A DNA stretch of 24,917 bases from Saccoglossus kowalevskii (Eukaryota; Hemichordata; Enteropneusta; Harrimaniidae): assembly GCF_000003605.2 (NCBI RefSeq), contig NW_003149662.1, positions 1 to 24,917 on the forward strand, in the 5' to 3' direction. A program made the translations under genes and the position numbers. Below, one piece after another: positions 1 through 24,917 of the stretch. The notes under the pieces were generated by a model. It ran no database searches. It was not told the origin of the DNA and saw only the letters and a program-made list of their open reading frames with translations. Each line of letters opens with the position of its first letter. Position 1 is the first letter of the stretch.

Positions 1-221
1 CAGTGGGTATGACCATGCAACTCTCTTACAATTTGGTACGACGACTCAATCAACGTAGTGGGTATGACCATGTAGCTCTCTTACAATCTGGTATGACGAC
101 TCAACCAACATAGTGGGTATGACCATGCAACTCTCTTACAATCTGTCATGACGACTCAATCAACGTAGTTGGTATGACCATGCAGCTCTCTTACAATCTG
201 GTACGACGACTCAACCAACAT

Positions 222-386
222 AGTGGTTATGACCATGCAACTCTCTTACAATCTGGTACGACGACTCAAATAACATAGTGGGTATGACCGGGCAACTCTC
301 TTACAATCTGGTACGATGACTCAATCAACGTAGCGGGTATGACCGTGCAACTCTCTTACAATCTGGTAAGGCGACTCAATCAACGT
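222..386. repeat. Diagnostic three-monomer run (ATAACA / CCGGG / AGCGGG)
   Basis: This is the first example of the best marker for HOR type A. The first unit begins AGTGGTTATG and ends ATAACA, the second carries ACCGGGCAAC and GTACGATG, and the third begins AGCGGG and carries GTAAG. CCGGG-type units begin at 277, 1046, 1431, 1871, 2476, 3081, 3796, 4567, 5227, 5556, 11993, 12489, 13204, 13975, 14855, 15295, 15735, 16175, 17055, 18704, 20795, 22334, 22884, 23984 and 24644. The copies at 14855 and 17055 read CTGGG and TCGGG. At 1431, 3796 and 11993 the following unit is not of the AGCGG type, which points to recombination at those places. No such unit occurs between 5,611 and 11,992. Confidence 0.85.
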
Positions 387-2972: not shown

Positions 2973-3580
2973 TTGGTATGACCATGCAGCTCTCTTACAA
3001 TCTGGTACGACGACTCAACCAACATAGTGGTTATGACCATGCAACTCTCTTACAATCTGGTACGACGACTCAAATAACATAGTGGGTATGACCGGGCAAC
3101 TCTCTTACAATCTGGTACGATGACTCAATCAACGTAGCGGGTATGACCGTGCAACTCTCTTACAATCTGGTAAGACGACTCAATCAACGTAGTGGTTATG
3201 ACCATGCAGCTCTCTTACAATCTGGTACGACGACTCAACCAACATAGTGGGTATGACCGTGCAACTCTCTTACAATCTGGTCCGATGACTCAATCAACGT
3301 AGTGGGTATGACCGTGCAACTCTCTTACAATCTGGTACAACGACTCAATCAATATAGTGGATATGACCGTGCAACTCTCTTACAATCTGGTACGACGACT
3401 TAATCAACGTAGTGGGTATGACCGTGCAACTCCCTTACAATCTGGTAAGACAACTCAATCAACGTAGTAGGTATGACCATGCAGCTCTCTTACAACCTGG
3501 TACGACGACTCAACCAACATAGTGGGTATGACCGTGCAACTCTCTTACAATCTGGTACGACGACTCAATTAACATAGTGG
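2973..3580. repeat. HOR block, copy 1 of a 27-monomer-offset duplication
   Basis: This 608-bp stretch is repeated at 4,459-5,066 with offset 1,486 bp, which is 27 monomers plus the single-base insertion near 4,122. Both copies share the same ordered variants, including GTCCGATG, the rare end TCAATATAG, GGATATG, CTCCC with GTAAGACAA, AGTAGG and CAACCTGG. I noticed only a few differences, for example ACGACG versus ACGATG and CAACTC versus CAGCTC near the end. The match ends where copy 1 reads AGTGGGTATG and copy 2 reads AGTGGATATG. It is a recent segmental duplication or HOR unit of the array. Confidence 0.8.
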
Positions 3581-4458
3581 GTATGACCGTGCAGCTCTCT
3601 TACAATCTGGTATGACGACTCAATCAACATAGTGGATATGACCGAGCAACTTTCTTACAATCTGGTACGACGACTTAATCAACGTAGTGGGTATAACCAT
3701 GCAACTCTCTTACAATTTGGTACGACGACTCAACCAACATAGTGGTTATGACCATGCAACTCTCTTACAATCTGGTACGACGACTCAAATAACATAGTGG
3801 GTATGACCGGGCAACTCTCTTACAATCTGGTACGATGACTCAATCAACGTAGTGGATATGACCGTGCAACTCTCTTACAATCTGGTACGATGACTTAATC
3901 AACGTAGTGGGTATGACCATGCAACTCTCTTACAATCTGGTACAATGACTCAATCAACATAGTGGGTATGACCATGCAGCTCTCTTACAATCTGGTATGA
4001 CGACTCAACCAAGATAGTGGTTATGATCGTGCAACTCTCTTACAATCTGGTACGACGACTCAATTAACATAGTGGGTATGACCATGCAACTCTCTTACAA
4101 TCTGGTATGACGACTCAATTAAACATAGTGGTTATGACCGTGCAACTCTCTTACAATCTGGTACGACGACTCAATCAACATAGTGGGTATGACCATGCAG
4201 CTCTCTTAAAATCTGGTACGATGATTCAATCAACGTAGCGGGTATGACCGTGCAACTCTCTTACAATCTGGTAAGACGACTCAATCAACGTAGTGGGTAT
4301 GATCGTGCAACTCTCTTACAATCTGGTACGACGACTTAATCAACGTAGTGGGTATGACCATGCAACTCTCTTACAATTTGGTACGACGACTCAATCAACG
4401 TAGTGGGTATGACCATGCAGCTCTCTTACAATCTGGTATGACGACTCAACCAACATAG

Positions 4459-5066
4459 TGGGTATGACCATGCAGCTCTCTTACAATCTGGTACGACGAC
4501 TCAACCAACATAGTGGTTATGACCATGCAACTCTCTTACAATCTGGTACGACGACTCAAATAACATAGTGGGTATGACCGGGCAACTCTCTTACAATCTG
4601 GTACGATGACTCAATCAACGTAGCGGGTATGACCGTGCAACTCTCTTACAATCTGGTAAGACGACTCAATCAACGTAGTGGTTATGACCATGCAGCTCTC
4701 TTACAATCTGGTACGACGACTCAACCAACATAGTGGGTATGACCGTGCAACTCTCTTACAATCTGGTCCGATGACTCAATCAACGTAGTGGGTATGACCG
4801 TGCAACTCTCTTACAATCTGGTACAACGACTCAATCAATATAGTGGATATGACCGTGCAACTCTCTTACAATCTGGTACGACGACTTAATCAACGTAGTG
4901 GGTATGACCGTGCAACTCCCTTACAATCTGGTAAGACAACTCAATCAACGTAGTAGGTATGACCATGCAGCTCTCTTACAACCTGGTACGATGACTCAAC
5001 CAACATAGTGGGTATGACCGTGCAGCTCTCTTACAATCTGGTACGACGACTCAATTAACATAGTGG
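4459..5066. repeat. HOR block, copy 2 of a 27-monomer-offset duplication
   Basis: This is the partner of 2,973-3,580, with the same run of about 11 variant monomers in the same order. The +1 insertion (TTAAACATAG near 4,122) lies between the two copies and sets the odd offset of 1,486 bp. Confidence 0.8.
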
Positions 5067-6370
5067 ATATGACCATGCAACTCTCTTACAATCTGGTACG
5101 ACGACTTAATCAACGTAGTGGGTATGACCATGCAACTCTCTTACAATTTGGTACGACGACTCAACCAACATAGTGGTTATGACCATGCAACTCTCTTACA
5201 ATCTGGTACGACGACTCAAATAACATAGTGGGTATGACCGGGCGACTCTCTTACAATCTGGTACGATGACTCAATCAACGTAGCGGCTATGACCGTGCAA
5301 CTCTCTTACAATCTGGTAAGACGACTCAATCAACGTAGTGGGTATGACCATGCAGCTCTCTTACAATCTGGTACGACGACTCAACCAACATAGTGGGTAT
5401 GACCATGCAACTCTCTTACAATCTGGTCCGACGACTCAATCAATGTAGTGGGTATGACCGTGCAACTCTCTTACAATCTGGTACAACGACTCAATCAACA
5501 TAGTGGATATGACCGTGCAACTCTCTTACAATCTGGTACGACGACTCAATAACATAGTGGGTATGACCGGGCAACTCTCTTACAATCTGGTACGATGACT
5601 CAATCAACGTAGCGGGTATGACCGTGCAACTCTCTTACAATCTGGTAAGACGACTCAATCAACGTAGTGGTTATGACCATGCAGCTCTCTTACAATCTGG
5701 TACGACGACTCAACCAACATAGTGGGTATGACCCATGCAACTCTCTTACAATCTGGTACGACGACTCAAATAACATAGTGGGTATGACCGTGCAACTCTC
5801 TTACAATCTGGTACGATGACTCAGTCAACGTAGCGGGTATGACTTTGCAATTCTCTTACAATCTGGTACTACGACTCAATCAACGTAGTGGGTATGACCA
5901 TGCAGCTCTCTTACAATCTGGTACGATGACTCAACCAACATAGTGGGTATGACCGTGCAACTCTCTTACAATCTGGTCTGACGACTCAATCAACATAGTG
6001 GGTATGACCGTGCAACTCTCTTACAATCTGGTACGACGAATCAATCAACGTAGTGGGAATGACCGTGCAACTCTCTTACAATCTGGTACAACGACTCAAT
6101 CAACATAGTGGATATGACCGTGCAACTCTCTTACAATCTGGTACGACGACTTAATCAACGTAGTGGGTATGACCGTGCAACTCCCTTACAATCTGTTAAG
6201 ACAACTCAATCAACGTAGTGGGTATGACCATGCAGCTCTCTTACAACCTGGTACGATGACTCAACCAACATAGTGGGTATGACCGTGCAACACTCTTACA
6301 ATCTGGTACGACGACTCAATTAACATAGTGGGTATGACCGTGCAACTCTCTTACAATCTGGTACGAAGAC

Positions 6371-7043
6371 TCAATCAACATAGTGGGTATGACCATGCAG
6401 CTCTCTTACAATCTGGTATGACGACTCAACCAACATAGTGGGTATGACCGTGCAACTCTCTTACAATCTGGTACGATGACTCAATCAACGTAGTGGGTAT
6501 GATCGTGCAACTCTCTTACAATCTGGTACGACGATTCAATCAACGTAGTGGGTATGACCGTGCAACTCTCTTACAATCTGGTACGACGACTCAATCAACG
6601 TAGTTGGTATGACCATGCAGCTCTCTTACAATCTGGTATGACGACTCAACCAAGATAGTGGTTATGATCGTGCAACTCTCTTACAATCTGGTACGACGAC
6701 TCAATTAACATAGTGGGTATGACCATGGAACTCTCTTACAATCTGGTATGACGACTCAATTAACATAGTGGTTATGACTGTGCAACTCTCTTACAATCTG
6801 GAACGACGACTCAATCAACATAGTGGGTATGACCATGCAGCTCTCTTAAAATCTGGTACGATGATTCAATCAACGTAGAGGGTATGACCGTGCAACTCTC
6901 TTACAATCTGGTAAGACGACTCAATCAACATAGTGGGTATGACCATGCAGCTCTCTTACAATCTGGTACGACGATTCAATCAACGTAGTGGGTATGACCG
7001 TGCAACTCTCATACAATCTGGTACGACGAGTCAATCAATGTAG
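6371..7043. repeat. Domain B duplication, copy 1 (30-monomer offset)
   Basis: This 673-bp stretch recurs at 8,021-8,693 with an offset of exactly 1,650 bp (30 monomers). By eye I count four differences. Shared rare variants include CCATGGAAC, CTGGAACGAC, TAGAGGGTATG, CTCATACAATC and GAGTCAATCAATG. Identity ends where copy 1 reads TAGTGGGTAT and copy 2 reads TAGTTGGTTT. The number of shared rare variants makes parallel mutation implausible. Confidence 0.85.
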
Positions 7044-8020
7044 TGGGTATGACCATGCAGCTATCTTACAACCTGGTACGATGACTCAACCAACATAGTG
7101 GGTATGACCGTGCAACACTCTTACAATCTGGTACGACGACTCAATTAACATAGTGGGTATGACCGTGCAACTCTCTTACAATCTGGTACGAAGACTCAAT
7201 CAACATAGTGGGTATGACCATGCAGCTCTCTTACAATCTGGTATGATGACTCAACCAACATAGTGGGTATGACCGTGCAACTCTCTTACAATCTGGTAAG
7301 ACGACTCAATCAATGTAGTGGGTATGACCATGCAGCTCACTTACAATCTGGTACGACGACTCAACCAACATAGTGGGTATTACCATGCAACTCTCTTACA
7401 ATCTGGTATGACGACTCAATCAACATAGTGGGTATGACCGTGCAACTCTCTTACAATCTGGCATGACGACTCAACCAACATAGTGGGTATGTCTGTGCAA
7501 CTCTCTTACAATCTGGTACGACGATTCAATCAACGTAGTGGGTATGACCATGCAACTCTCTTACAATCTGGTACGACGAGTCAATCAATGTAGTTGGTAT
7601 GACCATGCAGCTCTCTTACAATCTGGTACGACAACTCAATCAACGTTGTGGATATGACCGTGCAACTCTCTTACAATATGGTACGACGACTCAATCAACG
7701 TAGTTGGTATGACCATGCAGCTCTCTTACAATCTGGTATGACGACTCAACCAAGATAGTGGTTATGATCGTGCAACTCTCTTACAATCTGGTACGACAAC
7801 TCAATTAACATAGTGGGTATGACCATGCAACTCTCTTACAATCTGGTATGACGACTCAATCAACGTAGTGGGTATGATCGTGCAACTCTCTTACAATCTG
7901 GTACAACGAATCAATCAACGTAGTTGGTATGACCATGCATCTCTCTTACAATCTGGTACGACGACTCAATTAACATAGTGGCTATGACCGTGCAACTCTC
8001 TTACAATCTGGTACAACGAC

Positions 8021-8693
8021 TCAATCAACATAGTGGGTATGACCATGCAGCTCTCTTACAATCTGGTATGACGACTCAACCAACATAGTGGGCATGACCG
8101 TGCAACTCTCTTCCAATCTGGTACGATGACTCAATCAAAGTAGTGGGTACGATCGTGCAACTCTCTTACAATCTGGTACGACGATTCAATCAACGTAGTG
8201 GGTATGACCGTGCAACTCTCTTACAATCTGGTACGACGACTCAATCAACGTAGTTGGTATGACCATGCAGCTCTCTTACAATCTGGTATGACGACTCAAC
8301 CAAGATAGTGGTTATGATCGTGCAACTCTCTTACAATCTGGTACGACGACTCAATTAACATAGTGGGTATGACCATGGAACTCTCTTACAATCTGGTATG
8401 ACGACTCAATTAACATAGTGGTTATGACTGTGCAACTCTCTTACAATCTGGAACGACGACTCAATCAACATAGTGGGTATGACCATGCAGCTCTCTTAAA
8501 ATCTGGTACGATGATTCAATCAACGTAGAGGGTATGACCGTGCAACTCTCTTACAATCTGGTAAGACGACTCAATCAACATAGTGGGTATGACCATGCAG
8601 CTCTCTTACAATCTGGTACGACGATTCAATCAACGTAGTGGGTATGACCGTGCAACTCTCATACAATCTGGTACGACGAGTCAATCAATGTAG
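8021..8693. repeat. Domain B duplication, copy 2 (30-monomer offset)
   Basis: This is the partner of 6,371-7,043 and carries the same rare variants in the same order. Its private differences are GGCATG, TTCCAATC, TCAAAG and GGTACG near 8,090-8,150. Confidence 0.85.
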
Positions 8694-11330
8694 TTGGTTT
8701 GACCATGCAGCTCTCTTACAATCTGGTACGACAACTCAATCAATGTTGTGGGTATGACCGTGCAACTCCCTTACTATCTGGTAAGACGACTCAATCAACA
8801 TAGTGGGTATGACCATGCAGCTCTCTTCCAACCTGGTACGACGACTCAACCAACATAGTGGGTATGACCGTGCAACTCTCTTACAATCTGGTATGACGAC
8901 TCAATTAACATAGTGGGTATGACTGTGCAACTCTCTTACAATCTGGTACGACGACTCAATCAACGTAGTTGGTATGACCATGCAGCTCTCTTACAATCTG
9001 GTACGACGACTCAACCAACATAGTGGGTATGACCGTGCAACTCTCTGACAATCTGGTACGACAACTCAATTAACATTGTGGGTATGACCATGCAACTCTC
9101 TTACAATCTGGTACGACGACTCAATCAACATAGTGGGTATGACCATGCAGCTCTCATACAATCTGGTATGCCGACTCAATCAACATAGTGGATATGACCG
9201 TGCAAGTCCCTTACAATCTGGTACGACGACTTAATCAACGTAGTGGGTATGACCGTGCAACTCTCTTACAATTTGGTACGACGACTCAATCAACGTAGTG
9301 GGTATGACCGTGCAGCTCTCTTACAATCTGGTATGAAGACTCAACCAACATAGTGGGTATGACCATGCAACTCTCTTACAATCTGTTACGATGACTCAAT
9401 CAACGTAGTTGGTATGACCATACAGCTCTCTTACAATCTGGTACGACGACTCAACCAACATAGTGGTTATGACCATGCAACTCTCTTACAATCTGGTACA
9501 ACGACTTAAATAACATAGTGGGTATGACCGTGCAACTCTCTTACAATCTGGTGCGATGACTCAATCAACGTAGCGGGTATGACCGTGCAACTCTCTTACA
9601 ATCTGGTAAGACGACTCAATCAATGTAGTTGGTATGACCATGCAGCTCTCTTACAATCTGGTACGACAACTCAATCAACATTGTGCGTATGACCGTGCAA
9701 CTCCCTTACAATCTGGTAAGACGACTCAATCAACGTAGTGGGTACGACCATGCAGCTCTCTTCCAACCTGGTACGATGACTCAACCAACATAGTGGGTAT
9801 GACCGTGCAACTCTCTTACAATCTGGTATGACGACTCAATTAACATAGTGGGTATGACCGTGCAAGTCTCTTACAATCTGGTACAACGACTCAATCAACA
9901 TAGTTGGTATGACCATGCAGCTCTCTTACAATCTGGTACGACGACTCAACCAACATAGTGGGTATGACCGTGCAACTCTCTTACAATCTGGTACGACAAC
10001 TCAATTAACATAGTGGGTATGACCATGCAACTCTCTTACAATCTGGTACGACGACTCAATCAACGTAGCGGGTATGACCGTGCAACTCTCTTACAATCTG
10101 GTAAGACGACTCAATCAACATAGTGGGTATGACCATGCAGCTCTCTTGCAATCTGGTACGACGACTCAACCAACATAGTGGGTATTACCGTGCAACTCTC
10201 TTACAATCTGGTACGACGACTCAATCAACATAGTGGGTATGACGGTGCAACTCTCTTACAATCTGGTATGACGACTCAACCAACATAGTGGGTATGTCTG
10301 TGCAACTCTCTTACAATCTAGTACGACGATTCAATCAACGTAGTGGGTATGACCGTGCAACTCTCTTACAATCTGGTACGACGAGTCAATCAATGTAGTT
10401 GGTATGACCATGCAGCTCTCTTACAATCTGGTACGACAACTCAATCAACGTTGTGGGTATGACCGTGCAACTCCCTTACAATCTGGTAAGACGACTCAAT
10501 CAACGTAGTGGGTATGACCATGCAGCTCTCTTCCAACCTGGTACGACGACTCAACCAACATAGTGGGTATGACCGTGCAATACTCTTACAATCTGGTACG
10601 ACAACTCAATTAACAAAGTGGGTATGACCATGCAACTCTCTTACAATCTGGTACGACGACTCAATCAACATAGTGGTTATGACCATGCTGCTCTCTTACA
10701 ATCTGGTAAGACGACTCAATTAACATAGTGGGTATGACCATACAGCTCTCTTACAATCAGGTACGACGACTCAATCAACATAGTGGGTATGACCATGCAG
10801 CTCGCTTACAATCTGGTATGACAACTCAATCAACATAGTGGGTATGACCATGCAACTCTCTTACAATCTGGTACGACGACTCAATTAACATAGTGGGTAT
10901 GACCGTGCAACTCTCTTACAATCTGGTATGACGACTCAATTAACATAGTGGGTATGACCGTGCAACTCTCTTGCAATCTGGTACGACGACTCAATCAACA
11001 TACTGGGTATGACGGTGCAACTCTCTTACAATCTGGTACGACGACTCAATTAACATAGTGCGTATGACAGTGCAACTCTCTTAAAATCTGGTATGATGAC
11101 TCAATTAACATAGTGAGTATGACCGTGCAACTCTTTTACAATCTGGTACAATGACTCAATTAACATACTGGGTATGACTGTGCAACTCTCTTACAATCTG
11201 GTACGATGACTCAATTAACATATTGGGTATGACCGTGCAACTCACTTGCAATCTTGTACGACGACTCAATCAACATAAGTGGGTATGACCATACAGCTCT
11301 CTTACAATCAGCTACAATGACTCAATCAAC

Positions 11331-13808
11331 ATAGTGGGTATGACCATGCAGCTCTCTTACAATCTGGTATGCCGACTCAATCAACATAGTGGATATGACC
11401 GTGCAACTCTCTTACAATCTGGTACGATGACTTAATCAACGTAGTGGGTATGACCATGCAACTCTCTTACAATTTGGTACGACGACTCAATCAACATAGT
11501 GGGTATGACCATGCAACTCTCTTACAATCTGGTACGACGACTCAATCAACATAGTGGGTATGACCATGCAGCTCTCTTACAATCTGGTATGACGACTCAA
11601 TCAACATAGTGGGTATGACCATGCAGCTCTCTTACAATCTGGTATGCCGACTCAATCAACATTGTGGATATGACCGTGCAACTCTCTTACAATCTGGTAC
11701 GACGACTTAATCAACGTAGTGGGTATGACCATGCAACTCTCTTACAATTTGGTACGACGACTCAATCAACGTAGTGGGTATGACCATGTAGCTCTCTTAC
11801 AATCTGGTATGACGACTCAACCAACATAGTGGGTATGACCATGCAACTCTCTTACAATCTGTCACGACGACTCAATCAACGTAGTTGGTATGACCATGCA
11901 GCTCTCTTACAATCTGGTACGACGACTCAACCAACATAGTGGTTATGACCATGCAACTCTCTTACAATCTGGTACGACGACTCAAATAACATAGTGGGTA
12001 TGACCGGGCAACTCTCTTACAATCTGGTACGATGACTCAATCAACGTAGTGGGTATGACCGTGCAACTCTCTTACAATCAGGTACGACGACTCAATCAAC
12101 ATAGTGGGTATGACCATGCAGCTCTCTTACAAATCTGGTATGACGACTCAACCAACATAGTGGGTATGACCATGCAACTCTCTTACAATCTGTCACGACG
12201 ACTCAATCAACGTAGTTGGTATGACCATGCAGCTCTCTTACAATTTGGTACGACGACTCAATCAACTTAGTGGGTATGACCATGCAGCTCTCTTACAATC
12301 TGGTATGACGACTCAACCAACATAGTGGGTATGACCATGCAACTCTCTTACAATCTGTCACGACGACTCAATCAACGTAGTTGGTATGACCATGCAGCTC
12401 TCATACAATCTGGTACGACGACTCAACCAACATAGTGGGTATGACCATGCAACTCTCTTACAATCTGGTACGACGACTCAAATAACATAGTGGGTATGAC
12501 CGGGCAACTCTCTTACAATCTGGTACGATGACTCAATCAACGTAGCGGGTATGACCGTGCAACTCTCTTACAATCTGGTAAGACGACTCAATCAACGTAG
12601 TGGTTATGACCATGCAACTCTCTTACAATCTGGTACGACGACTCAACCAACATAGTGGGTATGACCGTGCAACTCTCTTACAATCTGGTCCGATGACTCA
12701 ATCAACGTAGTGGGTATGACCGTGCAACTCTCTTACAATCTGGTACAATGACTCAATCAATATAGTGGATATGACCGTGCAACTCTCTTACAATCTGGTA
12801 CGATGACTTAATCAACGTAGTGGGTATGACCGTGCAACTCCCTTACAATCTGGTAAGACAACTCAATCAACGTAGTAGGTATGACCATGCAGCTCTCTTA
12901 CAACCTGGTACGACGACTCAACCAACATAGTGGGTATGACCGTGCAACTCTCTTACAATCTGGTACGACGACTCAATTAACATAGTGGGTATGACCGTGC
13001 AACTCTCTTACAATCTGGTATGACGACTCAATCAACATAGTGGATATGACCGAGCAACTCTCTTACAATCTGGTACGACGACTTAATCAACGTAGTGGGT
13101 ATGACCATGCAACTCTCTTACAATTTGGTACGACGACTCAACCAACATAGTGCTTATGACCATGCAACTCTCTTACAATCTGGTACGACGACTCAAATAA
13201 CATAGTGGGTATGACCGGGCAACTCTCTTACAATCTGGTACGATGACTCAATCAACGTAGCGGGTATGACCGTGCAACTCTCTTACAATCTGGTAAGACG
13301 ACTCAATCAACGTAGTGGTTATGACCATGCAGCTCTCTTACAATCTGGTACGACGACTCAACCAACATAGTGGGTATGACCGTGCAACTCTCTTACAATC
13401 TGGTCCGACGACTCAATCAACGTAGTGGGTATGACCGTGCAACTCTCTTACAATCTGGTACAACGACTCAATCAACATAGTGGATATGACCGTGCAACTC
13501 TCTTACAATCTGGTACGACGACTTAATCAACGTAGTGGGTATGACCGTGCAACTCCCTTACAATCTGGTAAGACGACTCAATCAACGTAGTAGGTATGAC
13601 CATGCAGCTCTCTTACAATCTGGTACGACGACTCAATCAACATAGTGGGTATGACCGTGCAGCTCTCTTAAAATCTGGTACGACGACTCAATCAACGTAG
13701 TGGGTATGACCGTGCAACTCCCTTACAATCTGGTAAGACAACTCAATCAACGTAGTAGGTATGACCATGCAGCTCTCTTACAACATGGTACGACGACTCA
13801 ACCAACAT
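11331..13808. repeat. HOR domain A, second block
   Basis: About 45 monomers return to type A order, with CCGGG units at 11,993, 12,489 and 13,204. The block begins with the run ATGCCGACTC, GGATATG, TTAATCAACG and TTGGTACG, which also begins A-type blocks at about 14.34, 16.54 and 21.83 kb. One monomer, 12,103-12,158, is 56 bp because of an extra A (ACAAATCTGG near 12,131). That insertion produces the longest open frame of the window at 12,049-12,270, which I do not regard as a gene. Confidence 0.78.
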
Positions 13809-14304
13809 AGTGGGTATGTCCGCGCAGGTCTGGTACAATTTGGTCCGATGAATCAATCAAGCTAGTGGGTAGGTCCGGGCAACTCTCTTACAATCTGGTA
13901 CAATGATTCAATCAATATAGTGGATATGACCGTGCAACTCTCGTACAATCGCGGTACGGTGACTCAAATAACATAGTGGGTATGACCGGGCAACTGTGCA
14001 GCAATTCAGTGAGCGAGGTCAATCAAGATAGCGGGTATGACCGTGCAACTCTCCCCCAATGTGGTAAGATGCATCAATCCAGGTAGCGGGTCAGGCCATC
14101 CAACTGTAAAGCAATCAGGTAGGGCAACTCAATTAACATAAGGGGTATGACCCAGCAGGCATCCCACAATTTGCTACGTAGACTCAATCATCGTAGTGGG
14201 TATGGCCATACAGGTGTATAACAATTTCACACAGGGACCCAATCAGCACAGGGGGTAAGTCCATACAGCCATTAGTCAATCAGGTACGACGACTCAATCA
14301 ACAT
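13809..14304. other. Composite of cloning vector and satellite (likely assembly artefact)
   Basis: Nine units (eight of 55 bp and one of 56 bp) stay in satellite register but differ heavily from consensus, one by about 30%. The anomalous bases equal a pUC/pBR322-type backbone read colinearly. Near 13,819-13,865 they fit the ori end (around GGCGGAG, CGCCAGCA and CGGTTCC). TCAGTGAGCGAGG lies at 14,006-14,018, AACTCAATTAA resembles vector AACGCAATTAA at 14,126-14,136, and ATAACAATTTCACACAGG lies at 14,218-14,235. From the first to the last landmark is 230 bp here and 230 bp in the vector as I recall it. Across those 230 bp I count 136 bases equal to vector, and the rest agree with satellite. Variant order (GTCCGATG, TCAATATAG, CCGGG, AGCGGG) still follows HOR A, so the satellite component is ordinary. 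The pattern suggests a quality-weighted consensus of an untrimmed vector read and a satellite read. Vector assignment fades after about 14,255. Confidence 0.85.
14218..14235 (+). promoter_or_regulatory. lac operator/lacZ leader match of vector origin
   Basis: The 18 bases ATAACAATTTCACACAGG are identical to the E. coli lac operator and lacZ leader segment used in pUC-type vectors, where the M13 reverse primer anneals. Only the ACAATTT part can be supplied by the satellite monomer. This is a contamination landmark, not a functional operator of this locus. Confidence 0.8.
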
Positions 14305-15111
14305 AGTGGGTATGACCATGCAGCTCTCTTACAATCTGGTATGCCGACTCAATCAACATAGTGGATATGACCGTGCAACTCTCTTACAATCTGGTACGAC
14401 GACTTAATCAACGTAGTGGGTATGACCATGCAACTCTCTTACAATTTGGTACGACGACTCAATCAACGTAGTGGGTATGACCATGCAGCTCTCTTACAAT
14501 CTGGTATGACGACTCAACCAACATAGTGGGTATGACCATGCAACTCTCTTACAATCTGTCACGACGACTCAATCAACGTAGTTGGTATGACCATGCAGCT
14601 CTCTTACAATTTGGTACGACGACTCAATCAACGTAGTGGGTATGACCATGCAGCTCTCTTACAATCTGGTATGACGACTCAACCAACATAGTGGGTATGA
14701 CCATGCAACTCTCTTACAATCTGTCACGACGACTCAATCAACGTAGTTGGTATGACCATGCAGCTCTCTTACAATCTGGTACGACGACTCAACCAACATA
14801 GTGGTTATGACCATGCAACTCTCTTACAATCTGGTACGACGACTCAAATAACATAGTGGGTATGACTGGGCAACTCTCTTACAATCTGGTACGATGACTC
14901 AATCAACGTAGCGGGTATGACCGTGCAACTCTCTTACAATCTGGTAAGACGACTCAATCAACGTAGTGGTTATGACCATGCAGCTCTCTTACAATCTGGT
15001 ACGACGACTCAACCAACATAGTGGGTATGACCGTGCAACTCTCTTACAATCTGGTCCGACGACTCAATCAACGTAGTGGGTATGACCGTGCAACTCTCTT
15101 ACAATCTGGTA
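14281..15111. repeat. HOR block also present at 16,481-17,311 and partly at 20,349-21,107
   Basis: Bases 14,281-15,111 match 16,481-17,311 at an offset of 2,200 bp (40 monomers) with six differences by eye. From 14,409 to about 15,167 the block also matches 20,349-21,107 at an offset of 5,940 bp (108 monomers) with three differences. The shared order is ATGCCGACTC, GGATATG, TTAATCAACG, TTGGTACG, GTATG/CCAACA, CTGTCACG and so on, to GTACAACG. The 5' edge of this copy abuts the vector-composite patch. Confidence 0.82.
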
Positions 15112-15550
15112 CAACGACTCAATCAACATAGTGGATATGACCGTGCAACTCTCTTACAATCTGGTACAATGACTCAATCAACATAGTTGGTATGACCATG
15201 CAGCTCTCTTACAATCTGGTACGATGACTCAACCAACATAGTGGGTATGACCGTGCAACTCTCTTACAATCTGGTACGATGACTCAAATAACATAGTGGG
15301 TATGACCGGGCAACTCTCTTACAATCTGGTACGATGACTCAATCAACGTAGCGGGTATGACCGTGCAACTCTCTTACAATCTGGTAAGATGACTCAATCA
15401 ACGTAGTGGGTATGACCATGCAACTCTCTTACAATCTGGTACGACAACTCAATTAACATAGTGGGTATGACCATGCAACTCTCTTACAATCTGGTACGAC
15501 GACTCAATCAACATAGTGGGTATGACCATACAGCTCTCTTACAATCTGGT
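14671..15550. repeat. 880-bp HOR unit, copy 1 (16 monomers)
   Basis: Comparing each base with the one 880 bp downstream gives eight differences over 880 bp, about 99% identity. The unit holds two CCGGG runs, at 14,855 and 15,295. The second differs from the first (ACAATG, TAGTTGG, and GTACGATG before ATAACA), so the true repeat is 16 monomers and not 8. It is followed directly by copy 2. Confidence 0.88.
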
Positions 15551-16430
15551 ACGACGACTCAACCAACATAGTGGGTATGACCATGCAACTCTCTTACAAT
15601 CTGTCACGACGACTCAATCAACGTAGTTGGTATGACCATGCAGCTCTCTTACAATCTGGTACGACGACTCAACCAACATAGTGGTTATGACCATGCAACT
15701 CTCTTACAATCTGGAACGACGACTCAAATAACATAGTGGGTATGACCGGGCAACTCTCTTACAATCTGGTACGATGACTCAATCAACGTAGCGGCTATGA
15801 CCGTGCAACTCTCTTACAATCTGGTAAGACGACTCAATCAACGTAGTGGGTATGACCATGCAGCTCTCTTACAATCTGGTACGACGACTCAACCAACATA
15901 GTGGGTATGACCGTGCAACTCTCTTACAATCTGGTCCGACGACTCAATCAACGTAGTGGGTATGACCGTGCAACTCTCTTACAATCTGGTACAACGACTC
16001 AATCAACATAGTGGATATGACCGTGCAACTCTCTTACAATCTGGTACAACGACTCAATCAACATAGTTGGTATGACCATGCAGCTCTCTTACAATCTGGT
16101 ACGACGACTCAACCAACATAGTGGGTATGACCGTGCAACTCTCTTACAATCTGGTACGATGACTCAAATAACATAGTGGGTATGACCGGGCAACTCTCTT
16201 ACAATCTGGTACGATGACTCATTCAACGTAGCGGGTATGACCGTGCAACTCTCTTACAATCTGGTAAGATGACTCAATCAACGTAGTGGGTATGACCATG
16301 CAACTCTCTTACAATCTGGTACGACAACTCAATTAACATAGTGGGTATGACCATGCAACTCTCTTACAATCTGGTACGACGACTCAATCAACATAGTGGG
16401 TATGACCATACAGCTCTCTTACAATCTGGT
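15551..16430. repeat. 880-bp HOR unit, copy 2 (16 monomers)
   Basis: This copy is directly adjacent to copy 1 and about 99% identical. Differences include CTGGAACG for CTGGTACG near 15,715, AGCGGCTATG for AGCGGGTATG, and CATTCAACG for CAATCAACG near 16,212. Similarity stops at about 16,431, where AATGAACATAG replaces AACCAACATAG. Confidence 0.88.
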
Positions 16431-16480
16431 ATGACGACTCAATGAACATAGTGGGTATGACCATACAGCTCTCTTACAAT

Positions 16481-17311
16481 CAGGTACGACGACTCAATCA
16501 ACATAGTGGGTATGACCATGCAGCTCTCTTACAATCTGGTATGCCGACTCAATCAACATAGTGGATATGACCGTGCAACTCTCTTACAATCTGGTACGAC
16601 GACTTAATCAACGTAGTGGGTATGACCATGCAACTCTCTTACAATTTGGTACGACGACTCAATCAACGTAGTGGGTATGACCATGCAGCTCTCTTACAAT
16701 CTAGTATGACGACTCAACCAACATAGTGGGTATGACCATGCAACTCTCTTACAATCTGTCACGACGACTCAATCAACGTAGTTGGTATGACCATGCTGCT
16801 CTCTTACAATTTGGTACGACGACTCAATCAACGTAGTGGGTATGACCATGCAGCTCTCTTACAATCTGGTATGACGACTCAACCAACATAGTGGGTATGA
16901 CCATGCAACTCTCTTACAATCTGTCACGACGACTCAATCAACGTAGTTGGTATGACCATGCAGCTCTCTTACAATCTGGTACGACGACTCAACCAACATA
17001 GTGGTTAAGACCATGCAACTCTCTTACAATCTGGTACGACGACTCAAATAACATAGTGGGTATGATCGGGCAACTCTCTTACAATCTGGTACGATGACTC
17101 AATCAACGTAGCAGGTATGACCGTGCAACTCTCTTACAATCTGGTAAGACGACTCAATCAACGTAGTGGTTATGACCATGCAGCTCTCTTACAATCTGGT
17201 ACGACGACTCAACCAACATAGTGGGTATGACCGTGCAACTCTCTTACAATCTGGTCCGACGACTCAATCAACGTAGTGGGTATGACCGTGCAACTCTCTT
17301 ACAATCTGGTA
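16481..17311. repeat. HOR block, copy 2 of 14,281-15,111
   Basis: This copy is offset 40 monomers from 14,281-15,111. Private changes are CTAGTATG near 16,703, CATGCTGCTC near 16,797, GGTTAAGACC near 16,997, GATCGGG near 17,066 and AGCAGG near 17,112. Unlike the copy at 14,281 it has normal satellite upstream (CATACAGCTCTCTTACAATC near 16,465), which shows what the composite patch has overwritten. Confidence 0.82.
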
Positions 17312-17500
17312 AGACAACGCAATCAACGTAGTAGGTATGACCATGCAGCTCTCTTACAACCTGGTACGACGACTCAACCAACATAGTGGGTATGACCGTG
17401 CAACTCTCTTACAATCTGGTACGACGACTCAATTAACATCGTGGGTATGACCGTGCAACTCTCTTACAATCTGGTACAACGACTCAATCAACATAGTGGG

Positions 17501-17830
17501 TATGACCATGCAGCTCTCTTACAATCTGGTATGATGACTCAATCAACGTAGTTTGTATGACCATGCAGCTCTCTTACAATCTGGTACGACGACTCAACCA
17601 ACATAGTGGGTATGACCATGCAACTCTTTTACAATCTGGTATGATGACTCACTTAACATAGTGAGTATGACTGTGCAACTCTCTTACAATCTGGTACAAC
17701 GACTCAATCAACATAGTAGGTATTACCATGCAGCTCTCTTACAATCTGGTATGACGACTCAACCAACATAGTGGGTATGACCGTGCAACTCTCTTCCAAT
17801 CTGGTACGATGACTCAATCAATGTAGTGGG
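17501..17830. repeat. C-type variant module, copy 1
   Basis: This short run of satellite monomers is marked by TAGTTTGTATG, CTCTTTTACAATC, GATGACTCACTTAACATAG, AGTGAGTATGACTG, AGTAGGTATTACC and CTCTTCCAATC. The same run recurs 70 monomers downstream (about 21,351-21,680) and again 38 monomers further on. No other element is present. Confidence 0.75.
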
Positions 17831-17890
17831 TATGATCGTGCAACTCTCTTACAATCTGGTACGACGAATCAATCAACGTAGTTGGTATGA

Positions 17891-18453
17891 CCATGCAACT
17901 CTCTTACAATCTGGTACAATGACTCAATCAACATAGTGGGTATGACCATGCAGCTCTCTTACAATCTGGTATGACGACTCAACCAAGATAGTGGTTATGA
18001 TCGTGCAACTCTCTTACAATCTGGTACGACGACTCAATTAACATAGTGGGTATGACCATGCAACTCTCTTACAATCTGGTATGACGACTCAATTAACATA
18101 GTGGTTATGACCGTGCAACTCTCTTACAATCTGGTACGACGACTCAATCAACATAGTGGGTATGACCATGCAGCTCTCTTAAAATCTGGTACGATGATTC
18201 AATCAACGTAGCGGGTATGACCGTGCAACTCTCTTACAATCTGGTAAGACGACTCAATCAACGTAGTGGGTATGACCATGCAGCTCTCTTACAATCTGGT
18301 ACGACGAGTCAATCAATGTAGTTGGTTTGACCATGCAGCTCTCTTACATTCTGGTACGACGACTCAATCAATGTTGTGGGTATGACCGTGCAGCTCCCTT
18401 ACAATCTGGTAAGACGACTCAATCAACGTAGTGGGTATGACCATGCAGCTCTC
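17891..18453. repeat. B-type block, copy 1 of a 24-monomer-offset duplication
   Basis: This 563-bp stretch recurs at 19,211-19,773 with an offset of exactly 1,320 bp (24 monomers), with only two differences by eye (both G versus A, at 18,361 and 18,392). Shared rare markers are CAAGATAGTGGTTATGATCG, CTCTTAAAATC, GATTCAATCAACG, GAGTCAATCAATG, TTGGTTTGACC and TTACATTCTGG. The match ends at a one-base deletion (CTCTACAATTTGG near 18,454) in this copy. This is the closest duplicate pair I found. Confidence 0.88.
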
Positions 18454-18570
18454 TACAATTTGGTACGACGACTCAACCAACATAGTGGGTATGACCATGC
18501 AACTCTCTTACAATCTGGTATGACGACTCAATCAACGTAGTTGGTATGACCATGCAACTCTCTTACAATC

Positions 18571-19148
18571 TGTCACGACGACTCAATCAACGTAGTTGGT
18601 ATGACCATGCAGCTCTCTTACAATCTGGTACGACGACTCAACCAACATAGTGGTTATGACCATGCAACTCTCTTACAATCTGGTACGACGACTCAAATAA
18701 CATAGTGGGTATGACCGGGCAACTCTCTTACAATCTGGTACGATGACTCAATCAACGTAGCGGGTATGACCGTGCAACTCTCTTACAATCTGGTAAGACG
18801 ACTCAATCAACGTAGTGGTTATGACCATGCAGCTCTCTTACAATCTGGTACGACGACTCAACCAACATAGTGGGTATGACCGTGCAACTCTCTTACAATC
18901 TGGTCCGATGACTCAATCAACGTAGTGGGTATGACCGTGCAACTCTCTTACAATCTGGTAAGACGACTCAATCAACGTAGTGGGTATGACCATGCAACTC
19001 TCTTACAATCTGGTAAGACGACTCAATCAACGTAGTGGGTATGACCATGCAGCTCTCTTACAATCTGGTACGACGACTCAACCAACATAGTGGGTATGAC
19101 CGTGCAACTCTCTTACAATCTGGTCCGACGACTCAATCAACGTAGTGG
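18571..19148. repeat. A-type block, copy 1 of a 96-monomer-offset duplication
   Basis: This stretch matches 23,851-24,428 at an offset of exactly 5,280 bp (96 monomers), with two differences by eye (CGTAG versus CATAG near 18,592, and TATGACC versus TATTACC near 18,658). A related block at about 2,350-2,930 shares the order, including two successive GTAAG monomers after GTCCGATG. Three occurrences of such a specific order mark one ancestral HOR segment. Confidence 0.85.
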
Positions 19149-19210
19149 ATATGACCGTGCAACTCTCTTACAATCTGGTACGATGACTCAACCAACGTAG
19201 TGGGTATGAC

Positions 19211-19773
19211 CCATGCAACTCTCTTACAATCTGGTACAATGACTCAATCAACATAGTGGGTATGACCATGCAGCTCTCTTACAATCTGGTATGACGACTC
19301 AACCAAGATAGTGGTTATGATCGTGCAACTCTCTTACAATCTGGTACGACGACTCAATTAACATAGTGGGTATGACCATGCAACTCTCTTACAATCTGGT
19401 ATGACGACTCAATTAACATAGTGGTTATGACCGTGCAACTCTCTTACAATCTGGTACGACGACTCAATCAACATAGTGGGTATGACCATGCAGCTCTCTT
19501 AAAATCTGGTACGATGATTCAATCAACGTAGCGGGTATGACCGTGCAACTCTCTTACAATCTGGTAAGACGACTCAATCAACGTAGTGGGTATGACCATG
19601 CAGCTCTCTTACAATCTGGTACGACGAGTCAATCAATGTAGTTGGTTTGACCATGCAGCTCTCTTACATTCTGGTACGACAACTCAATCAATGTTGTGGG
19701 TATGACCGTGCAACTCCCTTACAATCTGGTAAGACGACTCAATCAACGTAGTGGGTATGACCATGCAGCTCTC
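19211..19773. repeat. B-type block, copy 2 of a 24-monomer-offset duplication
   Basis: This is the partner of 17,891-18,453. It starts just after a one-base insertion (GACCCATGC near 19,210) and ends where CTCTTCCAACCTGG replaces the deleted CTCTACAATT form of copy 1. Confidence 0.88.
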
Positions 19774-20258
19774 TTCCAACCTGGTACGATGACTCAACCA
19801 ACATAGTGGGTATGACCGTGCAACTCTCTTACAATCTGGTATGACGACTCAATTAACATAGTGGGTATGACCGTGCAACTCTCTTACAATCTGGTACGAC
19901 AACTCAATCAACGTAGTTGGTATGACCATGCAGCTCTCTTACAATCTGGTACGACGACTCAACCAACATAGTGGGTATGACCATGCAACTCTCTTACAAT
20001 CTGGTACGACGACTCAATCAACATAGTGGGTATGACCGTGCAACACTCTTCCAATCTGGTACGATGACTCAATCAACGTAGTGGGTATGACCATGCAACT
20101 CTCTTACAATCTGGTATGACGACTCAATTAACATAGTGGTTATGACCGTGCAACTCTCCTTACATCTGGTACGACGACTCAATCAACATAGTGGGTATGA
20201 CCATGCAGCTCTCTTAAAATCTGGTACGATGATTCAATCAACGTAGCGGGTATGACCG

Positions 20259-20353
20259 TGCAACTTTCTTACAATGGAGTAAGACGAGTCAATCAACGTA
20301 GTGGATATGATCGTGCAACTCTTGTACAATATGGTACGGCGCAGTAATCAACG
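20259..20353. repeat. Small divergent patch inside the array
   Basis: Just under two monomers carry clustered unusual substitutions: CAACTTTCTT, ACAATGGAGTAAG, GACGAGTC, CTTGTACAATATGG and TACGGCGCAGTAATC. Register is kept with no net indel. The right edge returns abruptly to canonical sequence at ATCAACGTAGTGGG, the same HOR position as the sequence just downstream of the composite patch. I tested the anomalous bases against the pUC lac region and did not find a convincing fit, so this may be low-quality sequence, another contaminant, or true divergence. Confidence 0.6.
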
Positions 20354-20719
20354 TAGTGGGTATGACCATGCAACTCTCTTACAATTTGGTACGACGACTC
20401 AATCAACGTAGTGGGTATGACCATGCAGCTCTCTTACAATCTGGTATGACGACTCAACCAACATAGTGGGTATGACCATGCAACTCTCTTACAATCTGTC
20501 ACGACGACTCAATCAACGTAGTTGGTATGACCATGCAGCTCTCTTACAATTTGGTACGACGACTCAATCAACGTAGTGGGTATGACCATGCAGCTCTCTT
20601 ACAATCTGGTATGACGACTCAACCAACATAGTGGGTATGACCATGCAACTCTCTTACAATCTGTCAAGACGACTCAATCAACGTAGTTGGTATGACCATG
20701 CAGCTCTCTTACAATCTGG

Positions 20720-21763
20720 TACGACGACTCAACCAACATAGTGGTTATTACCATGCAACTCTCTTACAATCTGGTACGACGACTCAAATAACATAGTGGG
20801 TATGACCGGGCAACTCTCTTACAATCTGGTACGATGACTCAATCAACGTAGCGGGTATGACCGTGCAACTCTCTTACAATCTGGTAAGACGACTCAATCA
20901 ACGTAGTGGTTATGACCATGCAGCTCTCTTACAATCTGGTACGACGACTCAACCAACATAGTGGGTATGACCGTGCAACTCTCTTACAATCTGGTCCGAC
21001 GACTCAATCAACGTAGTGGGTATGACCGTGCAACTCTCTTACAATCTGGTACAACGACTCAATCAACATAGTGGATATGACCGTGCAACTCTCTTACAAT
21101 CTGGTACGACGACTTAATCAACGTAGTGGGTATGACCGTGCAACTCCCTTACAATCTGGTAAGACAACTCAATCAACGTAGTAGGTATGACCATGCAGCT
21201 CTCTTACAACCTGGTACGACGACTCAACCAACATAGTGGGTATGACCGTGCAACTCTCTTACAATCTGGTACGACGACTCAATTAACATAGTGGGTATGA
21301 CCGTGCAACTCTCTTACAATCTGGTATGACGACTCAATCAACATAGTGGGTATGACCATGCAGCTCTCTTGCAATCTGGTATGATGACTCAATCAACATA
21401 GTTTGTATGACCATGCAGCTCTCTTACAATCTGGTACGACGACTCAACCAACATAGTGGGTATGACCGTGCAACTCTTTTACAATCTGGTATGATGACTC
21501 ACTTAACATAGTGAGTATGACTGTGCAACTCTTTTACAATCTGGTACGTTGACTCAATCAACATAGTAGGTATTACCATGCAGCTCTCTTACAATCTGGT
21601 ATGACGACTCAACCATCATAGTGGGTATGACCGTGCAACTCTCTTCCAATCTGGTACGATGACTCAATCAATGTAGTGGGTATGACCATACAGCTCTCTT
21701 ACAATCTGGTATGACGACTCAATCAACATAGTGGGTATGACCATACAGCTCTCTTACAATCAG
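20720..21763. repeat. HOR block, copy 1 of a 38-monomer-offset duplication
   Basis: About 1,040 bp recur at 22,809-23,852 at an offset of 2,089 bp, which is 38 monomers minus the single-base deletion near 21,998. By eye there are about ten differences (about 99% identity). The block runs from the ATAACA/CCGGG/AGCGGG marker through GTCCG, GTACAACG, GGATATG, CTCCC and AGTAGG into the C-type module (TTTGTATG, CACTTAACATAGTGAG, GTATTACC). It is the longest near-identical pair in the window. Confidence 0.85.
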
Positions 21764-22388
21764 GTACGACAACTCAATCAACATAGTGGGTATGACCATG
21801 CAGCTCTCTTACAATCTGGTATGCCGACTCAATCAACATAGTGGATATGACCGTGCAACTCTCTTACAATCTGGTATGACGACTTAATCAACGTAGTGGG
21901 TATGACCATGCAACTCTCTTACAATTTGGTACGACGACTCAATCAACGTAGTGGGTATGACCATGCAGCTCTCTTACAATCTGGTATGACGACTCAACAA
22001 CATAGTGGGTATGACCATGCAACTCTCTTACAATCTGTCACGACGACTCAATCAACGTAGTTGGTATGACCATGCAGCTCTCTTACAATTTGGTACGACG
22101 ACTCAATCAACGTAGTGGGTATGACCATGCAGCTCTCTTACAATCTGGTATGACGACTCAACCAACATAGTGGGTATGACCATGCAACTCTCTTACAATC
22201 TGTCACGACGACTCAATCAACGTAGTTGGTATGACCATGCAGCTCTCTTACAATCTGGTACGACGACTCAACCAACATAGTGGTTATTACCATGCAACTC
22301 TCTTACAATCTGGTACGACGACTCAAATAACATAGTGGGTATGACCGGGCAACTCTCTTACAATCTGGTACGATGACTCAATCAACGT

Positions 22389-22443
22389 AGCGGCTATGAC
22401 CGTGCAACTCTCTTACAATCTGGTAAGACGACTCAATCAATAT
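22389..22443. repeat. Recombinant monomer with a three-monomer deletion junction
   Basis: This unit begins as the AGCGG type (AGCGGCTATG, GTAAGACG) but ends with TCAATATAG, which belongs to the unit normally three positions further along, and the GGATATG unit follows at once. In the comparable block at 12,544-12,763 three extra monomers lie between these parts. The monomer therefore records an in-register loss of 165 bp by unequal exchange, or an assembly misjoin of the same form. Confidence 0.8.
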
Positions 22444-22808
22444 AGTGGATATGACCGTGCAACTCTCTTACAATCTGGTACGACGACTTAATCAACGTAG
22501 TGGGTATGACCGTGCAACTCCCTTACAATCTGGTAAGACAACTCAATCAACGTAGTAGGTATGACCATGCAGCTCTCTTACAACCTGGTACGACGACTCA
22601 ACCAACATAGTGGGTATGACCGTGCAACTCTCTTACAATCTGGTACGACGACTCAATTAACATAGTGGGTATGACTGTGCAACTCTCTTACAATCTGGTA
22701 TGACGACTCAATCAACATAGTGGATATGACCAAGCAACTCTCTTACAATCTGGTACGACGACTTAATCAACGTAGTGGGTATGACCATGAAACTCTCTTA
22801 CAATTTGG

Positions 22809-23852
22809 TACGACGACTCAACCAACATAGTGGTTATGACCATGCAACTCTCTTACAATCTGGTACGACGACTCAAATAACATAGTGGGTATGACCGGGC
22901 AACTCTCTTACAATCTGGTACGATGACTCAATCAACGTAGCGGGTATGACCGTGCAACTCTCTTACAATCTGGTAAGACGACTCAATCAACATAGTGGTT
23001 ATGACCATGCAGCTCTCTTACAATCTGGTACGACGACTCAACCAACATAGTGGGTATGACCGTGCAACTCTCTTACAATCTGGTCCGACGACTCAATCAA
23101 CGTAGTGGGTATGACCGTGCAGCTCTCTTACAATCTGGTACAACGACTCAATCAACATAGTGGATATGACCGTGCAACTCTCTTACAATCTGGTACGACG
23201 ACTTAATCAACGTAGTGGGTATGACCGTGCAACTCCCTTACAATCTGGTAAGACAACTCAATCAACGTAGTAGGTATGACCATGCAGCTCTCTTACAACA
23301 TGGTACGATGACTCAACCAACATAGTGGGTATGACCGTGCAACTCTCTTACAATCTGGTACGACGACTCAATTAACATAGTGGGTATGACCGTGCAACTC
23401 TCTTACAATCTGGTATGACGACTCAATCAACATAGTGGGTATGACCATGCAGCTCTCTTACAATCTGGTATGATGACTCAATCAACATAGTTTGTATGAC
23501 CATGCAGCTCTCTTACAATCTGGTACGACGACTCAACCAACATAGTGGGTATGACCGTGCAACTCTTTTACAATCTGGTATGATGACTCACTTAACATAG
23601 TGAGTATGACTGTGCAACTCTTTTACAATCTGGTACGACGACTCAATCAACATAGTAGGTATTACCATGCAGCTCTCTTACAATCTGGTATGACGACTCA
23701 ACCAACATAGTGGGTATGACCGTGCAATTCTCTTCCAATCTGGTACGATGACTCAATCAATGTAGTGGGTATGACCATACAGCTCTCTTACAATCTGGTA
23801 TGACGACTCAATCAACATAGTGGGTATGACCATACAGCTCTCTTACAATCTG
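22809..23852. repeat. HOR block, copy 2 of a 38-monomer-offset duplication
   Basis: This is the partner of 20,720-21,763. Private differences include CATAGTGGTT near 22,990, CAGCTC near 23,120, CAACATGG near 23,297 and CAATTCTC near 23,726. Just downstream, 23,851-24,428 matches 18,571-19,148, so this part of the array is a patchwork of segments that also occur elsewhere in different order. Confidence 0.85.
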
Positions 23853-24428
23853 TCACGACGACTCAATCAACATAGTTGGTATGACCATGCAGCTCTCTTA
23901 CAATCTGGTACGACGACTCAACCAACATAGTGGTTATTACCATGCAACTCTCTTACAATCTGGTACGACGACTCAAATAACATAGTGGGTATGACCGGGC
24001 AACTCTCTTACAATCTGGTACGATGACTCAATCAACGTAGCGGGTATGACCGTGCAACTCTCTTACAATCTGGTAAGACGACTCAATCAACGTAGTGGTT
24101 ATGACCATGCAGCTCTCTTACAATCTGGTACGACGACTCAACCAACATAGTGGGTATGACCGTGCAACTCTCTTACAATCTGGTCCGATGACTCAATCAA
24201 CGTAGTGGGTATGACCGTGCAACTCTCTTACAATCTGGTAAGACGACTCAATCAACGTAGTGGGTATGACCATGCAACTCTCTTACAATCTGGTAAGACG
24301 ACTCAATCAACGTAGTGGGTATGACCATGCAGCTCTCTTACAATCTGGTACGACGACTCAACCAACATAGTGGGTATGACCGTGCAACTCTCTTACAATC
24401 TGGTCCGACGACTCAATCAACGTAGTGG
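23851..24428. repeat. A-type block, copy 2 of a 96-monomer-offset duplication
   Basis: This is the partner of 18,571-19,148, offset 5,280 bp. The tail beyond it (24,429-24,753) instead follows the order seen at about 15.96-16.28 kb (GTACAACG, GGATATG, GTACAACG, TAGTTGG, GTACGATG before ATAACA), which indicates another exchange point near 24,428. Confidence 0.83.
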
Positions 24429-24753
24429 GTATGACCGTGCAACTCTCTTACAATCTGGTACAACGACTCAATCAACATAGTGGATATGACCATGCAACTC
24501 TCTTACAATCTGGTACAACGACTCAATCAACATAGTTGGTATGACCATGCAGCTCTCTTACAATCTGGTACGACGACTCAACCAACATAGTGGGTATGAC
24601 CGTGCAACTCTCTTACAATCTGGTACGATGACTCAAATAACATAGTGGGTATGACCGGGCAACTCTCTTACAATCTGGTACGATGACTCAATCAACGTAG
24701 CGGGTATGACCGTGCAACTCTCTTACAATCTGGTAAGACGACTCAATCAACGT

Positions 24754-24917
24754 AGTGGGTATGACCATGCAACTCTCTTAAATCTGGTACGACAACTCGA
24801 TTAACATAATGGGTATGACCATGCAACTCTCTTACAATCTGGTACGAGACTCGTTCAACATAGGGGGTATGACCAAGCAACTCTCTTACAATCTGGTACG
24901 ACGACTCATACAAAGTA
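24754..24917. repeat. Degraded terminal monomers
   Basis: The last three monomers contain two one-base deletions (CTCTTAAATCTGG near 24,780 and GTACGAGACTC near 24,847) and several unusual changes (AACTCGATTAAC, CATAATGGG, CTCGTTCAAC, CATAGGGGG, CCAAGCAAC, ACTCATACAAAG). The previous 24.7 kb hold only about ten net indels. This looks like a read or contig end of lower quality, or the start of the array's decaying edge. Confidence 0.7.

Follow-up and report, generated by a model that had tools for sequence, protein, structure and literature searches.

A satellite contig and its irregular patch

The window, meaning the whole stretch of 24,917 nucleotides analysed here, is an entire contig of the Saccoglossus kowalevskii genome (C3971:1-24917; genome total 572,110,611 bases in 4830 contigs). 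It is filled by a 55-bp satellite, and in its interior lies a patch of about 450 bases in which satellite bases are interspersed with the bases of a cloning vector. The features are as follows, with L004 denoting the plasmid record mainly used for comparison.

2..24908, plus strand: host 55-bp satellite array filling the whole contig (Tandem Repeats Finder: 452.9 copies, about 453; 88% matches, 0% indels)
13819..14252, plus strand: vector-satellite mosaic, certain part (434 columns; rare bases equal to vector in 12/12 and 59/60 cases)
13819..14028, plus strand: vector component, the end of the plasmid with the pMB1-type origin (L004 diagonal at shift +1 to at least 13959 and at shift 0 from 13996; rare bases equal to vector 12/12 in 13819-13950 and 13/13 in 13996-14028)
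13951..13951, plus strand: extra base relative to the satellite register, equal to the vector base at shift +1 (register alignment and vector diagonal)
13960..13996, plus strand: interval holding one window base in excess of the vector (the fit is at shift +1 for 13959 and at shift 0 from 13996 on)
14006..14018, plus strand: exact vector run TCAGTGAGCGAGG, equal to L004
14029..14252, plus strand: vector component from the E. coli lac region up to the start of lacZ (46/47 rare bases equal to vector; this portion of the query finds lacI-lacZ as annotated in E. coli records)
14218..14235, plus strand: exact vector run ATAACAATTTCACACAGG, 18 bases, equal to L004, in the lac operator region; the sole exact copy found in the searchable genome
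14258..14276, plus strand: right fringe, eight bases deviating from the satellite copy at +2200 and fitted by no tested polylinker (array-copy and polylinker comparison)

We call a base rare if it is present in fewer than 3% of monomers at its column after register-aware alignment of the array. Rare bases occur at a mean of 0.64 per 55 bases across the array. Eight 55-base bins hold five or more, and seven of these eight lie within 13806-14300, the remaining bin starting at 20296. A second, smaller irregular spot, in which one- and two-base indels and rare bases are crowded together, spans 20158-20346. The patch retains the 55-bp register apart from the one extra base, as the first-pass annotation had described, and gave no match to an RNA family at gathering score.

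The same annotation had drawn the patch from 13809 to 14304 and had reported roughly 430 bp of colinear vector, from the origin end through the lac promoter and operator. The colinear stretch is borne out, running from 13819 to at least 14252. Towards the outer limits, 13809-13818 holds no rare base, deviating bases continue as far as 14276 but those at 14258-14276 fit no tested vector, and 14277-14300 is identical to the array copy at +2200. For that fringe, 13 of the 21 records covering at least 80% of our vector query were fetched, and L039 and L041 were dropped for want of an anchor. Against 18 polylinkers (11 from fetched records and 7 others, partly the same) at 28 shifts, the best agreement was six of the eight bases, a value of at least which was reached by 216 of 2000 random 70-mers. 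The polylinker that follows the lacZ start, and with it the identity of the vector, thus did not emerge above chance among these 18 candidates.

The satellite component also has structure of its own. The array copy at +2200 fits from 13951 rightwards into the right flank, with mismatches of 0/33, 2/107 and then 2/316. In 13819-13950, three other copies fit perfectly (0/85), yet these misfit the left flank (14-15 of 219). The best-fitting satellite variant therefore switches at 13951 and again at 13818/13819, suggestive of contig joins between different reads or copies. With the satellite part beyond 13951 running almost unbroken into the right flank, and a change of variant at 13951 itself, a join of satellite reads at the patch is suggested.

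A laboratory vector as the second source

Vector records were retrieved with a 342-base pUC-type stretch running from the origin to lac. Twenty-one plasmid records matched at least 80% of its length, and 10 of the 40 listed contained the whole stretch at 100%. The patch was scored against four fetched records (L001-L004), mainly L004, and nine further records were fetched for their polylinkers. Three of the matching records in the plasmid collection, L001, L033 and L034, bear labels naming Escherichia of a giant panda and of starlings and contain the laboratory origin-lac stretch in full at 100%; these are probably cloning vectors present in the samples or libraries.

Along a single ungapped diagonal over 13781-14330, L004 equals 69 of 86 rare bases, and the other three records equal 68, 67 and 65 of 86. 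The background, taken on both strands of the four records (20,026 diagonals), has a mean fraction of 0.247 and an sd of 0.051, and the next best unrelated diagonal reaches 42/86. In 300 dinucleotide shuffles of L004 the best diagonal averaged 36.1 +/- 1.5 with a maximum of 42/86, so that the vector alignment clearly exceeds that obtained with shuffled sequence. One fixed diagonal for the entire patch was nonetheless rejected, as it is bettered by a one-base shift left of 13960-13996. With that shift, and at the 3% cut, the vector equals 12/12 rare bases in 13819-13950 and 59/60 in 13996-14252, which upholds the original observation of a vector-satellite chimera. The result changes little with the cut, being 7/7 on the left and 51/51 on the right at 1%, and 12/14 and 60/61 at 5%. 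Between the two scored stretches, the rare bases at 13951, 13952 and 13959 also equal the vector at shift +1.

The annotation's counts can be followed closely. From the start of TCAGTGAGCGAGG at 14006 to the end of ATAACAATTTCACACAGG at 14235 there are 230 bases in the window and in L004 alike. Its tally of 136 of 230 bases equal to vector is exact, and its chance expectation of about 58 compares with a mean of 57.9 (sd 6.6, maximum 79) on the other 2511 plus-strand diagonals of L004. The longest exact run along the vector diagonal is 18 bases.

Rare bases on either side of the origin-lac fusion equal the vector on one diagonal (13/13 on the left, in 13996-14028, and 46/47 on the right). Since both sides of the fusion are represented, chromosomal lac or a natural plasmid would not by itself suffice as the source, which is a laboratory vector. 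A plasmid origin fused to lac is a laboratory construct, and the patch is accordingly an artefact.

Two sources account for almost every column. When satellite states were taken from array-wide frequencies, the 434 columns of 13819-14252 divided into 224 equal to satellite only, 135 equal to both, 74 equal to vector only and one, at 14210, equal to neither. When the satellite source was instead taken from array copies at offset -1155 on the left and +1320 on the right, the 442 columns of 13815-14256 divided into 232, 121, 89 and 0; the absence of columns matching neither source is partly a product of selection, as these copies were picked as best fits. Likewise, the non-vector columns equal an array copy in register at 85/85 positions in 13819-13949 (copy 12664-12794) and at 107/107 in 13996-14252 (copy 15316-15572), each copy having been chosen as best fit. 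The annotation's statement that the remaining positions agree with satellite is therefore sustained.

Taken at face value, the patch would pass for an array that had been invaded or for hyperdiverged monomers in a cluster. The preservation of the 55-bp register throughout, with one extra base, would be expected of real diverged monomers or of a novel element in the animal. The deviating bases, however, spell a vector on one diagonal, and we regard this reading as refuted, and its chance as negligible, since the vector accounts for 71 of the 72 rare bases in the two scored stretches. We are nearly certain that the patch is a letter-by-letter blend of satellite with a laboratory cloning plasmid, not animal DNA, and an artefact of some kind; this degree of confidence sums those of all the artefact readings considered below. 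The patch is without biological function.

Two plain similarity searches did not reveal the vector. Using blastn with 11-base words, the patch gave no match in 72,556 plasmid records and none in 50,697 phage records, which is expected for a blend. Even allowing up to three mismatches, a 30-mer taken from the blend has a single occurrence in the searchable genome. A search for vector elsewhere in the searchable genome came back empty, an answer that is uninformative by itself. In the window, 19 other segments, with 6-19 rare bases apiece, matched the vector at 5-13 of these when the best of all diagonals was taken, numbers too small for any single segment to be judged; the segment starting at 19841 reached 9/12 on the best of all vector diagonals and was not taken as a match.

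Column-by-column combination of the sources

The vector and satellite sources are identical at 121 of 442 columns (27%), which is the level of chance, as 44 of 440 circular shifts reach it. Globally aligned, the two stretches needed 39-105 gap runs under seven ordinary sets of costs; stiffer gap costs brought this down to 14 (5 per gap base) and, at a prohibitive level, to 2 (10 per gap base). In the patch, the pairing shows two single-base slips over more than 430 bases. Together, the low identity and the nearly gapless pairing mean that an ordinary gapped alignment misfits and that a superposition in lockstep is needed. The slips sit in different columns, that of the satellite at 13951 and that of the vector within 13960-13996. 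The first-pass annotation had seen one extra base near 13951 as the cause of a one-base alignment shift; the base is real relative to the satellite, but the vector's own extra window base lies elsewhere.

The choice between sources appears to have been made separately in each column. Among blocks of more than one base that lack a shared column, 10/27 on the left are mixed in source (12.3 +/- 1.5 under permutation) and 23/35 on the right (27.6 +/- 2.1). Source switches inside these 33 blocks show that columns were decided apart, which a graph path is incapable of. Of the 253 distinguishable columns, 73 take the vector base: 14/109 left of 13996 (13%) and 59/144 to the right (41%), a step with a Fisher P of 7e-7. 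Neighbouring choices agree 174 times, where shuffling inside each of the two zones predicts 157.6 +/- 6.2 (P 0.006); this mild clustering also shows in the shortfall of mixed blocks on the right. On the right, a vector T was chosen in 6/33 columns compared to 65/149 for other bases (P 0.01, a contrast picked after looking); over all four bases, the dependence of choice gives P 0.06 for vector bases and P 0.05 for satellite bases. No fixed ranking of the bases, alphabetical tie-breaking for instance, explains the choices, since in each of the six base pairs either base wins. The clustering and the left-right step fit a vote weighted by quality or coverage; the vector T deficit agrees with it less and allows for a mixed trace.

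We consider it probable that the patch arose in assembly, from a column-wise vote over an untrimmed vector tail laid without gaps on satellite reads; this account draws on the pattern of bases in the patch. A Sanger-type clone read from a leftward primer would have reached the vector after a short insert, or no insert at all, crossed the lac region and then entered the origin, reading leftwards. Its vector tail, left untrimmed, would have been laid gap-free over satellite reads, and a quality vote taken column by column could then have favoured the vector in about 41% of the distinguishable right-hand columns and in 13% of those to the left. The lower share on the left might reflect more satellite reads or poorer vector quality there. 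The length of the patch, about 430-460 bases, suits one Sanger read. A single satellite read is probably not enough, given that a different variant becomes the best fit at about 13951 and once more at the patch's left edge. The first-pass annotation's proposal of a consensus between one untrimmed vector read and one satellite read thus holds as to the base-by-base blend and needs amending as to the ordinary alignment and the single satellite read. Several observations tell against the voted tail. Standard assemblers exclude such tails or open gaps in them, and the genome looks more like a long-read assembly, having satellite contigs free of N, in which a lockstep blend is hard to explain. The deficit of vector T on the right is not predicted by a pure quality vote, the number of mixed blocks on the left is not clearly below chance, and a very gap-averse aligner (at the cost of 10 per gap base) would likewise yield two gap runs. 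The eight bases of the right fringe stay unexplained, and the vector has no match elsewhere in the searchable genome, with the reservation already given for that empty answer.

The main rival to the voted tail, which we consider unlikely, is a mixed-template chromatogram, in which one trace recorded a satellite clone together with a vector clone whose insert was short or absent, and the taller of two peaks was called. It accords with the gap-free lockstep of sources only 27% identical, with slips of one base by both sources close together but in different columns, as differences in mobility could give, and with the low share of vector T. Such a trace, however, would hardly account for a satellite variant that changes at about 13951 while the vector bases continue, so that more than one satellite source seems present; choices also cluster a little, their dependence on the base is weak, and mixed traces are of low quality and usually trimmed. 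Some other lockstep process, be it an in-silico blend, a deliberate test sequence or a polishing error of unfamiliar kind swapping bases column by column, seems to us rather improbable. The blend is nearly gapless, and its 30-mer and the 18-mer ATAACAATTTCACACAGG each occur singly in the searchable genome where no other vector trace was found, as such a process would allow; the vector share is uneven and the choices clustered, on the other hand, and the slips and the fringe resemble data and not a clean construction. A path-type consensus from a partial-order graph, or an ordinary gapped alignment of two reads, would also yield a mosaic of two sources, but we give it very little credence. In the former, a change of source is possible only at shared bases, and the latter predicts many more gap runs than the two slips seen; in their simple forms, both are ruled out by the mixed blocks and the gap-run counts.

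The wider assembly and a possible class of hidden contamination

At least seven of 19 other contigs with readable sequence (the mitochondrial contig included) are satellite over essentially the whole stretch read. Seven of these (L007, L018, L020, L021, L026, L027 and L028) have units of 58, 44, 216, 58, 20, 47 and 48 bp, respectively, and make up a rich set of satellites. No N occurs in 16 of 24 fetched stretches. Many contigs consisting of satellite throughout are a feature of long-read assemblies. Exact repeats reach at most 221-664 bases in nine of ten satellite stretches, and 1355 in the tenth. Such repeat lengths suit Sanger or shorter reads and satellite contigs free of N suit long reads, leaving the character of the genome ambiguous.

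We looked for further blends in seven other satellite contigs (the first 10 kb of each) and in the window. The densest spots of rare bases gave best vector fractions of 0.41-0.52, which we take as chance in view of the many diagonals tried, no random baseline having been set. Register shifts caused by indels weaken this hunt; run on the window, it ranked the drifting contig end, and not the patch, as the densest spot, so that other blends could have escaped it.

Also among the fetched sequences is the animal's mitochondrial contig (C4830, 17,037 bases; L031 and L032), which opens with a 141-bp tandem repeat of 4.8 copies. Its COX1 open frame at 13355-14941, identified by Pfam, lies on the strand opposite COX2, COX3, ATP6, ND1, ND2, ND4, ND5 and CYTB, the names other than COX1 being assigned by reading translations. 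The inversion reported for Asymmetron is a different one from this COX1 arrangement (PMC2034537).

The patch resembles several known artefacts without coinciding with any of them. As in ordinary vector contamination, where untrimmed vector lies at the end of a read or contig, the foreign part is laboratory pUC-type origin-lac sequence; in contrast to such contamination, the patch holds no long intact vector, its longest run being 18 bases, keeps the register of the host and gave no blastn match in the plasmid and phage records. As in a collapsed or misjoined assembly of tandem repeats, the patch shows a switch of best-fitting satellite variant at 13951, such as a doubtful join would leave, but a misjoin reorders true sequence, whereas the patch takes single bases from a foreign molecule. 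With a mixed-template Sanger trace it shares two sequences in lockstep and one base per position; unlike a single such trace, it contains a change of satellite variant that asks for further reads. Among the literature matches listed, no column-wise blend of vector and repeat appears in the titles and the beginnings of abstracts.

The patch demonstrates a form of contamination missed by two plain similarity searches, of plasmids and of phages. Although we give the idea a low probability, column-wise blends of vector and repeat may constitute a hidden class of contamination, keeping the register, probably passing a similarity-based vector screen and being counted as diverged monomers. If so, the patch would be one decoded case, and others could lie in the satellite divergence maps of further assemblies. 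For the S. kowalevskii satellite itself, the patch is foreign laboratory sequence at the scale of single bases and should therefore be masked, and 13819-14276 is unfit for studies of satellite evolution unless reads are remapped.
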